From: Halanaerobium saccharolyticum
GTDB lineage: Bacteria; Bacillota; Halanaerobiia; Halanaerobiales; Halanaerobiaceae
Assembly: GCF_004362045.1 (NCBI RefSeq)
Contig: NZ_SNWX01000009.1
Location: 1,083 to 65,082, forward strand
Direction of reading: 5' to 3'
Length of the DNA stretch: 64,000 nt
This document shows positions 58,834 through 64,000 of the stretch, in pieces. A program made the position numbers and the translations under genes. Within the stretch, counting starts at the first letter, position 1. Every line of letters begins with the position of its first letter. A model generated the notes under the pieces. The model ran no database searches. It had not been told where the DNA came from and saw only the letters and a program-made list of their open reading frames with translations.

Positions 58834-59277
58834 ATGGAAGAAGAAAAAATTAATAAAATCAAGGATATTTTAGCAGACTTTGGCCTTGAACTCCTCATTT
58901 TATTTGGCTCCTACGAAAGTAATAACTTTAATGAGAATAGTGATCTTGATTTAGCAGTAAAAGTTAAAGCTGTGGGGCAGCTAAAAAAAGACCAGTTAGA
59001 TATTTTAAATAAAATTTCCGCTCTCTTTAATCAAATACCAGTTGATCTGGTTTTATTAAATCATGCTGATCCTTTAATTAAATTCAAAATTGCTTCTGAG
59101 GGTAAACTGCTTTATCAAGCTGAAAAAGGCCTCTTTGAGAAATTTCAGGTAAGAGCCGCCGCTGAACATAATGACGCCCGAAAATTTTATCAGCTTGACA
59201 AAAAATTTATTGAAGATTTTTTAGAAAGGAGCCAGTCTAATGACAGATCCGCTCATCGTGCGCCGAAAATTAAATAA
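58834..59277 (+). CDS. mntA: MntA-type nucleotidyltransferase antitoxin (module 1)
   Basis: 147 residues. Minimal nucleotidyltransferase with the GSX10DXD motif: G-S-Y-E then ten residues to DLDLAV (about 28-45). In the type VII system MntA adds AMP to a tyrosine of HepT, blocking its toxicity. Its last 38 bases overlap the start of hepT. Start ATG at 58834 follows AGGAGGT. An extra C-terminal tail of about 35 residues past the core is longer than in the second module. Confidence 0.85.
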   Translation: MEEEKINKIKDILADFGLELLILFGSYESNNFNENSDLDLAVKVKAVGQLKKDQLDILNKISALFNQIPVDLVLLNHADPLIKFKIASEGKLLYQAEKGLFEKFQVRAAAEHNDARKFYQLDKKFIEDFLERSQSNDRSAHRAPKIK

Positions 59278-59677
59278 GATGATAGAATATCTAGATCAGC
59301 TGGAAGAAGTCAATCAATATACACTGGAAAATTACCTTGATAATTTTTTTGTTAAACGGACTGCAGAAAGGTTAATCCAGCTGATAGTTGAAACTGCAGC
59401 GGACATAAATGGCCATCTGATAGTTAGTTCAGGCCATAAGCCTCCTGCAGACTATTTCACTTCTTTTATTAAATTAAGTGAGCATCAGATAGTGGACCAA
59501 AAATTTGCTGAAGAAATTGCACCCTCAGCCGGATTGAGAAACCGCCTGGTTCATGAATATGAGGAAATAGATGATGAAATTGTTTACAAAAGTATTCAAA
59601 AAACTATTGATAATTACAAAAAATACATCAGAGAAATTGAAAACTACCTCAAAAATATCGAAAACTCCAGCCGCTAA
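59240..59677 (+). CDS. hepT: HepT-type HEPN toxin (module 1)
   Basis: 145 residues, helical, DUF86 family. The HEPN catalytic motif RX4HXY reads RNRLVHEY (about 108-115). HepT is an RNase toxin of type VII toxin-antitoxin systems; the Tyr of HXY is the target of MntA AMPylation. Start ATG at 59240 with AAAGGAG, inside the end of mntA, which ensures coupled translation. The strand partner and terminator follow. Confidence 0.87.
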   Translation: MTDPLIVRRKLNKMIEYLDQLEEVNQYTLENYLDNFFVKRTAERLIQLIVETAADINGHLIVSSGHKPPADYFTSFIKLSEHQIVDQKFAEEIAPSAGLRNRLVHEYEEIDDEIVYKSIQKTIDNYKKYIREIENYLKNIENSSR

Positions 59678-60093: not shown

Positions 60094-60510
60094 TCAAACT
60101 AATTTTAGATAAGATTTTAAAATCCCTCGTATATCAGCTAAATTGTTTTTTAATAAATCAAAAATAACATCTCTATCTAAATCCAGATAATCATGTACTA
60201 AAATATTTCTAAAAGCAATAATTCTTGTAAATAAATTCTTTTCTTTTTCATCTAAATAACCGTTTTCTGCCAGAATTATTGCAATATCTCTATAAACATC
60301 AACTCTGCCCAGATTATCATCTGAAATTATATGGTTTCCGATATCAATTAATGCTTCAATGGACAGATGCAAAAATCTTTCCGCACTGCCATACAAAAGA
60401 GGATTATTATTAAATTCTTCAAAGTCCACGTCTTTTACTATTTTATCCAGCTGTTCAAGATATTCATTACATTTTTGAGATCTCTCTAAAATTATCTCTC
60501 TTTTAACCAT
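60094..60510 (-). CDS. hepT: HepT-type HEPN toxin (module 2)
   Basis: 138 residues, DUF86 family, with RNILVHDY (about 102-109), an intact RX4HXY. It is only distantly similar to the HepT at 59240-59677, so not a recent duplicate. It overlaps mntA by eight bases at its start, with GGAGCGAATTTTAA upstream. Function as above for the family: RNase toxin silenced by AMPylation. Confidence 0.88.
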   Translation of the reverse strand: MVKREIILERSQKCNEYLEQLDKIVKDVDFEEFNNNPLLYGSAERFLHLSIEALIDIGNHIISDDNLGRVDVYRDIAIILAENGYLDEKEKNLFTRIIAFRNILVHDYLDLDRDVIFDLLKNNLADIRGILKSYLKLV

Positions 60511-60910
60511 TTAAAATTCGCTCCTTAAACTTCTGCTGGTTTTTCTTTAAATAATACTCAAAATCAAGATATTTCCTGATCACTAAAGATTGGTAAGAAG
60601 CTGCATCAAAGTCATTTTTTTTATAGATCAAATAATTTTCTTTAACAACTTCATATTTCAAAAGAGCTGAAGCCTGATTTAAAATAACTAAGTCGATATT
60701 ATCAAGTCCCTCTTTGATTAATTCTTCGTATAATTTAATTTTAAGTTCTCCACTTTTTTCGCTATAATCAGCCTCTAAAAGAACTGCAATATCTATATCA
60801 CTATTTTGATCAGCTTTATCACGGGCCTGGGAGCCAAAAAGATAGACAGCCTGAATAAACTTATATTCTTTTGCGATATTATTTAGCTTATCGATTATTT
60901 TCTGATCCAT
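60503..60910 (-). CDS. mntA: MntA-type nucleotidyltransferase antitoxin (module 2)
   Basis: 135 residues from ATG 60910, which has GAGGAG eight bases upstream; the longer frame to 60943 is not believed. GSX10DXD reads GSQARDKADQNS then DIDIAV. Together with the HepT gene it forms a complete type VII module on the opposite strand to module 1, the two separated by the PspC gene. Confidence 0.88.
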   Translation of the reverse strand: MDQKIIDKLNNIAKEYKFIQAVYLFGSQARDKADQNSDIDIAVLLEADYSEKSGELKIKLYEELIKEGLDNIDLVILNQASALLKYEVVKENYLIYKKNDFDAASYQSLVIRKYLDFEYYLKKNQQKFKERILNG

Positions 60911-61094
60911 TATATCAGCTCCTCTGAAGCCACATATTTGCATCTGAGTTTTATAAAGCAGTTTAGCAAAAGTCCGCAGCTAAAATTTCAATTAAATAAT
61001 CTCCTTAAATTTATTATAAAACAAATCTGACACAATTAACAGAGGTCTAAAAACTTTTTGTTAAAAAACTTGAAAATATCTGAATTAAATTTTG

Positions 61095-61133: not shown

Positions 61134-62222
61134 TTAAAAAACATAGCTTAGAGTTATCTCCAGACCCTTTGCATCTCCACCGAACATTTCTTCTTCTGCT
61201 CCGGCGGCAATGCTTCCTCTCAGTTCTAATTTCAGATTACTTCCAAATGTATAGGAATAATTGGGAATGAAAACTGTACTGCCGTCGTCTAAATAACTGA
61301 CCGTCATAATCCCGATAGAAGAAAAATCATCAATCTCATAACTTAGATTTGTATTGAAAAAATCTAAATTGTTTTCCAGAGCAGAAGTACTTTCAGGGTC
61401 TGCAGCTGCTCCAAGATTAAAGAAATCAAAAGATGAAATATCCCCTTTTACTCCTTCTAATCTCAAATACTCGCCCTGCAGATAAAGCTGGCTGCCGGCC
61501 AGAAAATTGTAACTGTAATCCGTACCCAGCTGATAAATATCATAGTCAATCACATCACTCTGCCAGAGACCATAGGCACCATAAACACCAACCGGGCCAA
61601 GATCACCTTTGGCTGTCAGTCCATAACGTTCAAAGTCAGTACTGGCAGAAACAGGGGTCCTCACATAACTGGCAGTTAGGTCATAGCCTCTAAAAGTAGT
61701 CCGACCTCTTAAGGCCCATTTATGCTCTTTTTGATTTTCCAGATTTGAGATATCAAAAGTTAGTCCTGAACCCCAGTTAATCGGATAATATATTTCTATT
61801 CCATCAACATATTTGGCCCGACTTTCCTGCTCTAAATTTTCTGCTCCCAGCGTATAATCAACCGGGTTAATTAAGGCACCATAGGACCAGGAAATAGGCT
61901 GTCTACCGACAGAGGCTGTGAACGGTCCCAGCTCTTTTTCCAGATATAATTTTTTAAACCAGAGGTCAAATTTATCTTCCCGACCTTCCTTCAAAGAAAT
62001 AACTGCTCTGTTTTGAATATTTAAAGGAAAATTATAGGGAAAATACCACTGCAGTTCCAATTCTGCTGCCAGGTTATTATTTAATTCAGAATCAGAATAA
62101 CTTAAGCTGCTGATTAACCGTGCTTCACCACCAATTTCCGCCGCTACAGGAAAGGAAATTAATGCAGTTAATATTACAATTGTAATTATTAAAAAGCCCT
62201 GTCTAATCTTTGAATTTTTCAT
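61134..62222 (-). CDS. Outer-membrane beta-barrel protein, DUF1302-like pattern
   Basis: 362 residues with a signal peptide (to about PVAA-EIGG, residue 29). Strand-turn pattern across the chain and a C-terminal aromatic strand (LEITLSYVF). Internal features include SVGRQPISWSYGALINPVDYT near residue 105, which recalls DUF1302-type barrels. Third gene of an operon after the ABC permease and the LolA-like protein. Likely the outer-membrane part of that system. Substrate unknown. Confidence 0.75.
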   Translation of the reverse strand: MKNSKIRQGFLIITIVILTALISFPVAAEIGGEARLISSLSYSDSELNNNLAAELELQWYFPYNFPLNIQNRAVISLKEGREDKFDLWFKKLYLEKELGPFTASVGRQPISWSYGALINPVDYTLGAENLEQESRAKYVDGIEIYYPINWGSGLTFDISNLENQKEHKWALRGRTTFRGYDLTASYVRTPVSASTDFERYGLTAKGDLGPVGVYGAYGLWQSDVIDYDIYQLGTDYSYNFLAGSQLYLQGEYLRLEGVKGDISSFDFFNLGAAADPESTSALENNLDFFNTNLSYEIDDFSSIGIMTVSYLDDGSTVFIPNYSYTFGSNLKLELRGSIAAGAEEEMFGGDAKGLEITLSYVF

Positions 62223-62261
62223 CCTAACAGCTCACCACCCTTTAAGTAAATATCTGTCAAT

Positions 62262-63050
62262 TTATCTTAATCTTTCTAAAGTAAAAATATCCTCCGGAAG
62301 CTCCGGATTGAAATTTATTTTCTGAATAATAAACTCTGTGCTGGTATTTTTGCGCAGCTTATTTTCCATAATCATCCGGACTGGATACCAGCGGCCCTCA
62401 ATCTTATCTACTTCTAAGACAACCGCTTCCTTTAACAGCCTGCCGCTTTCTGCATAAAGTTCTTCCTTTAAACCAACAAATCTTTCTTTATCAATCCAGA
62501 CAACTCTGCGGTAATAACTTACTTCTTTCCCCGGAACCTTAATCCCCTCCAGTTTGTAGACAGGCCGGCCTTTGTACTTTTCCTCACCCAGAAGTTTAAA
62601 ATTATATAATTCAGTTAGATCATCAGATTCGAGCATATCCTGGTAGGAAAAATCGCTGCCCATCATTCCCTGTTCCAGCATATGACCTGATATTTTAACT
62701 AAATCCTCTGCCTGGGGAAAAAACATCCAGAGATTGTCCCCTCTTTTTAAAAACTTAGTCCCTCTATCGCGTGGATTTGTAAATACCACCAGAGCTTTTT
62801 CGCCATCCTGCCAGCTGCGCATGGTTTTAACCATAGTTCTCCCACTATTTTTAATAATCATCTTTGATTCTGAATAAGCTTTGATCACATATTCATTTTG
62901 ATCTCTTCTGGTAATTATTTCATCTGCGGTTAATTCCTGAGCTGCGGCCAGAAAGGTGATCCCCACCAGTAAAATTGACAAAAGAGAAATAATTAATAAA
63001 ATTTTAAGCTGATAACTTCGTTCAGAGTTTCTCATCAAAGCAAACATCAT
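62262..63050 (-). CDS. LolA-like outer-membrane lipoprotein-sorting protein
   Basis: 262 residues. Signal/anchor (about 15-38) and then a half-barrel domain: SKMIIKNSGRTMVKTMRSW, KALVVFTNPRDRGTKFLKRGDNLWMFFP, SDFSYQDMLESDDL and GRPVYKLEG. This is the LolA-like family annotated as outer membrane lipoprotein-sorting protein, and it usually sits beside an FtsX-like permease and a barrel. It may shuttle a lipid or lipoprotein across the periplasm. Start ATG at 63050 follows GGGGGG. It is not the canonical LolA. Confidence 0.85.
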   Translation of the reverse strand: MMFALMRNSERSYQLKILLIISLLSILLVGITFLAAAQELTADEIITRRDQNEYVIKAYSESKMIIKNSGRTMVKTMRSWQDGEKALVVFTNPRDRGTKFLKRGDNLWMFFPQAEDLVKISGHMLEQGMMGSDFSYQDMLESDDLTELYNFKLLGEEKYKGRPVYKLEGIKVPGKEVSYYRRVVWIDKERFVGLKEELYAESGRLLKEAVVLEVDKIEGRWYPVRMIMENKLRKNTSTEFIIQKINFNPELPEDIFTLERLR

Positions 63051-63080
63051 TTTTTACCCCCTTCAAGATAATTGTTTTCT

Positions 63081-64000
63081 CTAGATTTCACGCAGGGCTT
63101 CTGTTGGATCTAATTTAGCTGCTCTACGCGCCGGAATGATAGCAGTTAAAGTTGTAACGATGACTCCAATTGCAAAGGCAAAAAGCATATGCTCAATTTT
63201 AAAAGTAGGATAGATAATTGGATTCATTAGAACATCAATATCTTCAAAGGCAGCACTGTAGTCAAATCCTACTCCTGACAGATAATAGTTTAAGGCCCCT
63301 CCCGCAAGTGCACCAAAAAAGCTGCCGACTACTGCCATTGCTGAACCTTCCAACATAAAAAGCAGCATAACTTCTTTTTTCTTTAGTCCAAGTGCACTCA
63401 TCATTCCAATTTCCTGAGTTCTTTCTTTGACGATCATTACCAGAGTATTAATTACTACAATAGAGGACAGCAGAACTAAGAAAAGATAGACGAAATTATA
63501 AATTGTCTCACTGACTTCTAACAGCTGGATAAAGGAATTACCATTTTTCCAGCTCTGGGCCAGATATTTATCTGCTCCTCCATTTTTTTCTAAATAATTT
63601 TTGACAGCTGGCAGATATTCATTTGCCTGTTCTCTATTGTTTGTCACCAGCAGCAGCTCTGTACTTTCATTATTTAAATAAAGTAATCTCTGAGCTGTAT
63701 CCAGAGGCATAAAGACAAGCTGTTCATTTAATAGAGGAAGATTGCTTTCAATTTTACCCACAATCTCAAAAGTAGCTCCCTGAAAAGAACTGAAAGCTGT
63801 GGTATAGACCATTGTCACATCTTCGCCCACACTTTTATTAATCTTAGCAAGCAGTTTTGTACCCATAACCACTTCTCTTCCACTTTTAACCATTCTGCCT
63901 TCTACCAGCTGCCGCTCAAGATTTGTAAATTGGAGTTCCTTTGCTCCGACAACTCCCCAGGCCAGCATCTGTACCAGTTCTTCCTCTGTACTAACTGCTG
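63081..64000 (-). CDS. FtsX/MacB-like ABC transporter permease (partial, runs off right edge)
   Basis: The frame is open through the window edge (codons before the ATG at 63968 continue AVSTEEELVQ), so the N-terminus is missing. It ends with three membrane helices (about residues 155-180, 205-235 and 255-285 of the visible part) and the FtsX-type motifs KERTQEIGMMSALGLKKKEV and IPARRAAKLDPTEALREI. The visible front part is a MacB periplasmic-core-like domain. With a LolA-like protein and an outer-membrane barrel next to it, it resembles a lipid or lipoprotein export system. The ATPase is expected beyond the edge. Confidence 0.88.
   Translation of the reverse strand, partial: AVSTEEELVQMLAWGVVGAKELQFTNLERQLVEGRMVKSGREVVMGTKLLAKINKSVGEDVTMVYTTAFSSFQGATFEIVGKIESNLPLLNEQLVFMPLDTAQRLLYLNNESTELLLVTNNREQANEYLPAVKNYLEKNGGADKYLAQSWKNGNSFIQLLEVSETIYNFVYLFLVLLSSIVVINTLVMIVKERTQEIGMMSALGLKKKEVMLLFMLEGSAMAVVGSFFGALAGGALNYYLSGVGFDYSAAFEDIDVLMNPIIYPTFKIEHMLFAFAIGVIVTTLTAIIPARRAAKLDPTEALREI

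Follow-up and report, generated by a model that had tools for sequence, protein, structure and literature searches.

A six-gene operon joining a LolCDE-type transporter, a LolA-like carrier and an outer-membrane barrel in Halanaerobium saccharolyticum: a candidate amphiphile exporter

In a stretch of 64,000 nucleotides from the halophilic diderm Halanaerobium saccharolyticum (the window; G000:C9:1083-65082 of a 3.36 Mb genome), the three rightmost genes, which encode an outer-membrane beta-barrel, a periplasmic LolA-like carrier and a permease of the FtsX/MacB fold, form the downstream end of an operon of six genes that begins to the right of the window. This operon is real and widely conserved, and its ATP-binding cassette (ABC) and LolA genes have been published before, as a presumed Lol system. 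We consider it slightly better than an even chance that the operon encodes a TetR-controlled, ATP-driven exporter that moves an amphiphile across the whole envelope, a lipid or lipophilic metabolite being a likelier cargo than lipoproteins in general.

Operon architecture and components

All six genes lie on the minus strand, in the order TetR, ABC ATPase, permease A, permease B, LolA-like carrier and barrel, with one overlap and otherwise gaps of 2 to 39 bases; inside the window, 30 bases separate permease B from the carrier and 39 bases separate the carrier from the barrel. Open reading frame (ORF) coordinates, Pfam matches and the barrel model confirm the three genes described in an earlier note on this DNA, and the rightward extension that it called for recovered the ATPase and a TetR regulator just past the window edge. 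As the note proposed, the permease, carrier and barrel fit the inner membrane, periplasm and outer membrane, respectively. The first three features below carry window positions, and the others are numbered in locus L005 (G000:C9:55000-74900), to which 53917 is added for the extrapolated window number.

61134..62222, minus strand: outer-membrane beta-barrel, 362 amino acids (aa), signal-peptide-like N-terminus, C-terminal Phe, 18 predicted strands
62262..63050, minus strand: periplasmic LolA-like carrier, 262 aa, PF17131, signal-peptide-like N-terminus, without a lipobox
63081..64000, minus strand: FtsX/MacB-fold permease B, cut by the window edge, last 305 of 416 residues inside
L005 9164-10414, minus strand: permease B, complete, 416 aa
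L005 10428-11663, minus strand: permease A, 411 aa
L005 11666-12379, minus strand: ABC ATPase, 237 aa, ABC_tran E 3.6e-36
L005 12342-12980, minus strand: TetR, 212 aa, TetR_N E 4.4e-13
L005 13018-13047, minus strand: double palindrome, predicted operator, 30 bases
L005 13049-13077, minus strand: promoter TTGACA-17-TATAAT

Judged by their sequences, both permeases are clearly relatives of LolF, LolC and LolE. The part of permease B inside the window matches FtsX in Pfam (E 4.2e-20), and sequence matches in the PDB are LolF, LolC, LolE and MacB for permease B and LolF, LolE and MacB for permease A. At seven loci (L086, L143, L146, L155, L170, L175, L180), extra LolC/E-type permease genes stand ahead of the ATPase gene, as if by duplication inside the operon.

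The carrier is a member of the LolA_like family PF17131 (197.9 bits against a cut-off of 30) and falls below the cut-off of DUF1329 (17.7 against 23.1 bits). Its structural model (predicted local distance difference test score, pLDDT, 93.2; predicted template modelling score, pTM, 0.82) lies closest to 4z48 (Z 26.6), which is titled a DUF1329 family protein, and to LolA3 of P. gingivalis (Z 25.4), with 3buu and 3bk5 also among the nearest solved folds (Z 25 to 27). The LolA and LolB entries are far from it (Z 9 to 14, or 9 to 13 for the LolA entries).

The barrel, which has a signal-peptide-like N-terminus by a crude script and ends in Phe, was modelled with 18 strands and no POTRA part (pLDDT 85.4, pTM 0.79). 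The model has the 18-stranded channel fold of Occ/OprD or AlgE: its best fold matches are Occ/OprD channels, with OpdQ at Z 23.0 (root-mean-square deviation 3.1 over 290 residues) and AlgE at about 22. Omp85, LptD and FadL are not in the list of best fold matches, a list that does not exclude them. Sequence comparison returned less: the barrel itself matched 0 Pfam families at E up to 1, and a PDB sequence search with the barrel profile found no relative. Among 45 barrels, 12 families were matched at E up to 10; neither OprD and alginate-export families nor the Omp85 profile PF01103 was among them, Porin_4 was matched by 14 barrels (best 3.9e-6) and Wzi by one.

By segment, conservation of the barrel is highest at residues 101-137, which comprise strand 5 and the long loop after it; the sequence GRQPISWSYGALINPVDYTLGAENLEQE (residues 106-133), from the end of strand 5 and the following loop, lies within this stretch. 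Conserved charged residues, among them R172, R174, D181, R199, K205, D207, D235 and E251, probably line the barrel lumen. A strict GRQ..W...NPVD pattern was found in 14 of 25 barrels from ABC sets, 1 of 6 unlabelled barrels and only 2 of 22 barrels from sets with an MMPL motor (described below; the barrel on contig C10 has the motif), and was ruled out as a general mark of both kinds of barrels by this last count.

Upstream of the TetR gene is a TTGACA-17-TATAAT promoter, and one base further the 30-base double palindrome begins, which we take to be the operator of TetR, as predicted from the sequence. With up to two mismatches, the palindrome pattern occurs at two places in the genome, compared with none for a backward-read control. 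It is present in 19 of the 38 genomes of Halanaerobiales, including all 10 f1 genomes with the operon and 0 of the 4 f1 genomes without it. The search of the H. saccharolyticum genome for a regulon yielded this operon and one relic site only, and so no clue to the cargo. The relic site (G000:C1:318886-318915; L221:6887-6916), at which the promoter and double palindrome recur, sits behind an RND efflux operon and is followed by the apparent first codons of a decayed tetR and then by unrelated genes; apparently, it is the leftover of a lost second copy of the operon. The same double palindrome is also found near other TetR genes in two further genomes (L233 in G031, L239 in G037), whose products start with the same TFFNL motif, which suggests a TetR subfamily with a shared operator.

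Co-occurrence and co-variation of carrier and barrel

The co-occurrence test for which the earlier note had asked showed that carrier and barrel both co-occur and co-vary. Among the 38 genomes of the order, the ABC-type carrier is present in 32, the barrel in 31, both in 30 (in one of them, G025, the barrel is a 65-residue fragment where a contig begins), neither in five, and one only in three, so that the two genes are jointly present or jointly absent in 35 genomes; a Fisher test of this co-presence is purely descriptive, since it counts related genomes as independent. In two of the one-only cases, the locus meets a contig edge: the G027 carrier stops 492 bases before the contig end, and the G032 barrel is at a contig start. 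In the third, G028, the carrier is present and the next genes are not a barrel. At the 32 carrier loci with an ABC motor, the barrel lies downstream, within 1.5 kb and on the same strand, in 25; six have no barrel and one is cut (L104). The barrel is downstream of ABC-motor carriers well beyond chance. Twenty of the carrier loci of the order were chosen by hand from profile matches.

The distance matrices of carriers and barrels are correlated (r 0.89, 0 of 2000 permutations, 50 loci) in a Mantel test from which shared species history was not removed. In the carrier tree as in the barrel tree, the second ABC copies of G011 and G013 cluster with family f4, a placement that suggests transfer of the whole set as one unit. 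Family f4 also includes two carriers that stand without a motor or a barrel (L102, L111), as well as a carrier-barrel pair without a motor (L103). Separation of barrel and LolA-like genes in relatives, which the earlier note had named as the outcome that would speak against it, is found in part: in f4, in one second copy elsewhere, and in G026 (C18) and G029 (C26), where the barrel stands apart from a carrier. The pair is dispensable, because it is absent from four genomes of the same family that are listed as 99% complete (G010, G014, G018, G022). In one of these, G010, a lone ORF resembling permease B (L214, G010:C58, 2028-3020; 330 aa), without carrier or barrel, is possibly a remnant. Next to one barrel-less ABC-carrier locus is a small predicted lipoprotein with an LTGC lipobox (L197:9876-10481, one and the same gene as L099:5093-5698).

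When the search was widened to the GTDB species collection, 180 relatives of the ABC-type carrier were retrieved, and the counts for public loci given here refer to the best 80 of the 180. These are titled Halanaerobiales and its genera, Bacillota/Firmicutes/Clostridia and Atribacterota, with one or two metagenome-assembled genomes each titled Aerophobetes, WOR-3, Elusimicrobia, Sumerlaeota, Spirochaetaceae and Limnochordia; these assembled genomes may be misbinned, and the record titles are not classifications. A permease gene lies upstream in 71 of the 80 loci, 55 with a barrel, 10 without one by the distance rule and six cut; one of the 10 (L211) does hold an overlapping barrel ORF, so the truly barrel-less loci number nine. 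The other nine of the 80 comprise eight with a barrel (five cut upstream, three with no ABC permease in place) and one cut upstream without a barrel. Where an ABC-plus-barrel locus extends more than 6.5 kb upstream (34 loci), an ATPase gene is found in 33 and a TetR gene in 24. A C-terminal Phe is present in 53 of 55 full-length barrels from the 80 loci. An Omp85 protein was detected in all 32 tested genomes not titled Halanaerobiales, by a search positive in 7 of 14 known control genomes and negative in B. subtilis, L. lactis and C. glutamicum; the H. saccharolyticum genome encodes one Omp85 protein. Two Atribacterota loci share one neighbour gene. Two stretches (L133:305-10965, L181:8941-18662) hold an MMPL-carrier-barrel set adjoining an ABC-carrier-barrel set.

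Sister sets with an MMPL motor

PF17131 occurs three times in the H. saccharolyticum genome, twice in sets where the motor is an MMPL protein: one on contig C3 (MMPL, carrier and a 466-aa barrel) and one on C10 (TetR, carrier, barrel and MMPL). Both MMPL-set carriers pass the DUF1329 cut-off (61.2 and 35.5 bits), and the C10 barrel passes that of DUF1302 (29.6 against 23.2). Among hand-picked loci, a barrel comes after the carrier in all 22 MMPL-motor cases examined. By profile comparison, homology between ABC-set and MMPL-set barrels extends over their full length: hhalign of the ABC barrels against 12 MMPL-set barrels gives 99.7% and E 8.3e-26 across the whole length, and the ABC-type barrel profile (n=32) detects 18 of the 21 barrels from MMPL sets among the loci retrieved, with E between 1.5e-23 and 5.1e-4, and misses L118, L126 and L132. 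A single branch separates the ABC from the MMPL sets in the carrier tree, and likewise in the barrel tree; these are quick trees with long branches flagged by the program, and rows without a seen motor were not counted. With one motor change per tree among the labelled rows, motor swapping inside the order was not found, so that motor exchange, if real, would be ancient.

The closest known counterparts are the Ame-type sets of RND, DUF1329 and DUF1302 proteins, AmeABCD of Castellaniella and PP_0765/PP_0766 with PP_2018/PP_2019 of P. putida, which share with the Halanaerobium set an inner-membrane motor, a periplasmic protein of the LolA superfamily and a barrel, in one cassette in the Ame case. 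The Halanaerobium set differs in being driven by an ABC rather than an RND motor, in an operon without an AmeC-type protein, and in having proteins below the DUF1329 and DUF1302 cut-offs. Without ameABCD, cells tolerate monoterpenes less well and, when treated with the protonophore CCCP, take in more Nile Red (PMC6394551), and the DUF1302 and DUF1329 proteins PP_0765 and PP_0766 are required for growth of P. putida on Tween 20, uptake also being possible (PMC10866462). The ABC set looks like an ATP-driven sister of the RND/DUF1329/DUF1302 lipophile exporters, because the MMPL sets of the same genome include a DUF1302 barrel homologous to the barrel of the operon.

Export, lipoprotein sorting or uptake

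For the exporter, we infer cargo class, direction, hand-over and regulation along the following lines. A ligand would relieve repression by TetR at the double palindrome, and the ABC part would use ATP to extract a greasy molecule from the inner membrane. The LolA-like carrier, with its predicted fold, would hold the greasy part of the cargo in an open half-barrel while crossing the periplasm and pass it to the dedicated barrel, which would be placed where LolB would otherwise act. The barrel, with 18 predicted strands, would then serve as the exit channel, for which the conserved long loop behind strand 5 and charged residues of the wall would act as the gate. That gene set and order are kept across phyla argues for this scheme, as do the joint presence and co-variation of carrier and barrel, the homology with the MMPL-set barrels, the phenotypes of the Ame-type sets, the weak LolB binding of LolA3, the channel fold of the barrel, the lack of canonical LolA in the order, the dispensability of the carrier-barrel pair and the distribution of the operator.

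Several observations weigh against it. The cargo is itself something that we infer, and the best matches of the permeases among solved chains, LolF, LolC and LolE, fit lipoproteins; the predicted lipoprotein beside the barrel-less locus L197 is a possible private cargo. ABC-carrier loci without a barrel include five in f4 (L097, L099, L101, L105, L107) and the second copy of G007 (L112), together with the nine public loci, four of which are the same loci as in the order. Hence the barrel is not always needed in cis. The link to the Ame-type exporters is loosened in that the barrel and carrier of the operon do not reach the DUF1302 and DUF1329 cut-offs, and by the C3 barrel, which matches 0 Pfam families, and the DUF1302/DUF1329 systems may themselves work in uptake. 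In addition, the control search with PF17131 was positive in three archaea, so that this family is not tied to an outer membrane.

The published interpretation is that of a Lol system. On the basis of LolA, LolC/E and LolD genes, Antunes et al. (2016) suggested that a functional Lol system, linked to Lnt, may exist in Halanaerobiales (PMC5007114), and a 2024 review states that Halanaerobiaceae likely gained lolCDE and lolA horizontally (PMC11784454). The 2016 cluster, in which a LolA homologue, two permeases and an ATPase occur together in most Halanaerobiales, very likely consists of the same ABC and LolA genes; it was read as lipoprotein sorting, the main text does not contain 'TetR', and in its accessible part no operator or barrel is named for the cluster (PMC5007114). 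The description of such sets as little studied in the earlier note thus has to be qualified for the LolA and LolCDE-like part; for the six-gene set, no paper was found in the accessible open-access PMC literature.

A Halanaerobiales Lol system made of LolCDE and LolA, with the barrel as a substitute for LolB, an insertase or a surface flippase, is the more serious of the alternatives, and still an unlikely one. Besides the permease matches to solved Lol chains, it draws on scores against the LolCE model TIGR02212 (124.4 and 120.5 bits), on Lnt, which is over its cut-off in 35 of the 38 genomes and not over it in G014, a genome that also lacks the operon, and on the carrier and barrel of the operon, neither of which has a lipobox, so that there is no LolB in the operon (no LolB search of the genome was made); across the loci, a loose lipobox pattern is found in 6 of 75 carriers and 2 of 61 barrels. 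However, the TIGR02212 cut-off (362.45 bits) is passed in 0 of the 38 genomes scanned, and G014, G018, G022 and G030 give no match whatever, although G018 and G022 keep Lnt; a LolCE-like permease is thus missing in three members of the order that are 99% complete. Nor does Lnt simply track the operon, because G010, G018 and G022 keep it without the ABC-type carrier. Canonical LolA (PF03548, with controls positive in 6 of 14 genomes, including E. coli and Caulobacter) was found in 0 of the 38 genomes and does not match the carrier, the model of which is far closer to proteins of the DUF1329 and LolA3 type than to LolA entries. Control by TetR through a dedicated operator would also fit an inducible exporter better than a housekeeping path.

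Among relatives or namesakes of the carrier, which are other proteins, LolA3 of P. gingivalis binds LolB very weakly and is without the marker residues of LolA and LolB (PMC13103446), and no phenotype was seen when F. johnsoniae was deprived of lolA3, gliding and amylase secretion staying intact (PMC11885536). In P. gingivalis and P. intermedia, operons bring TetR, ABC ATPases and MMPL together with an 'outer membrane lipoprotein-sorting protein' (PMC10434189); these Bacteroidota operons differ from the Halanaerobium set by their MMPL motor and, in the accessible text, by naming no barrel, only hypothetical proteins (PMC13103446, PMC10434189). Like the Halanaerobium set, BBJ23-BBJ29 of Borrelia combines a LolE-like ABC transporter, a LolA-like protein and a barrel, and a computed proposal has it move a non-polar ligand to the outer membrane; its permease, however, is homodimeric, its barrel is of the Omp85 type and it includes TPR proteins, in contrast to the two permeases, 18-stranded channel-type barrel and TetR gene of Halanaerobium (PMC13078400). 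Altogether, the ABC-carrier-barrel set is probably not the lipoprotein-sorting machine of the cell. From the private lipid or lipoprotein path of the earlier note, the lipid branch persists as the best reading, whereas the lipoprotein branch is weakened by Lnt, PF03548, TIGR02212, the fold matches and LolA3.

Uptake or retrograde transport, in which the barrel would admit a lipid or other amphiphile and the carrier and ABC part would bring it inward, is improbable. The best fold match of the barrel is to Occ channels, which are uptake channels, but characterised transporters of the MacB/LolCDE type act outward, Halanaerobium is a sugar fermenter, and among 20 hand-picked neighbour ORFs from other lineages, listed and inspected by eye without a family search, no catabolic gene or other cargo enzyme recurs across lineages. 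The Tween 20 requirement in P. putida (PMC10866462) points towards uptake, as does the rise of an MMPL/LolA-like protein and a neighbouring porin on a long-chain alkane (PMC6304351). We regard as more improbable still that the barrel is a mere porin on a shared promoter and that the functional unit consists of the ABC part and the carrier: the barrel-less loci in f4 and elsewhere, the barrels standing apart and the Porin_4 matches would agree with this, but the barrel stays beside the carrier across phyla, has co-diverged and apparently been co-transferred with it, and is also found at every MMPL-motor carrier examined.

Returning to export, we tentatively suggest, at somewhat less than even confidence, a broader exporter class with a LolA-like carrier and a matched 18-stranded exit channel as its constant core, in which the motor would be either a proton-driven RND protein or an ATP-driven ABC transporter of the LolCDE type. 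The ABC form, taken until now for a Lol system, would be widespread in diderm Bacillota and Atribacterota and would pass its cargo straight from the LolA-fold carrier to the barrel, without LolB.

Elsewhere in the window, two facing gene pairs (58834-59677, plus strand; 60094-60943, minus strand), each made up of small genes encoding a nucleotidyltransferase-like protein (GS..NSD[LI]D[LI]AV) and a HEPN-like protein, flank a PspC-like gene; from their ORFs, we take these pairs to resemble MntA/HepT pairs.

Lol sorting in diderm Firmicutes bears on the age of the Lol pathway and on the diderm-to-monoderm question. If the 'Lol' cluster of Halanaerobiales is an inducible lipid exporter, the evidence for Lol that comes from this cluster falls away, which would correct the reading of the cluster and provide an ABC-driven counterpart to the RND/LolA-like/barrel exporters. 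If true, the operon would represent a widespread six-gene path from the inner membrane to the cell surface that can be tested as a whole and for which candidates for regulator, carrier and exit channel are at hand.

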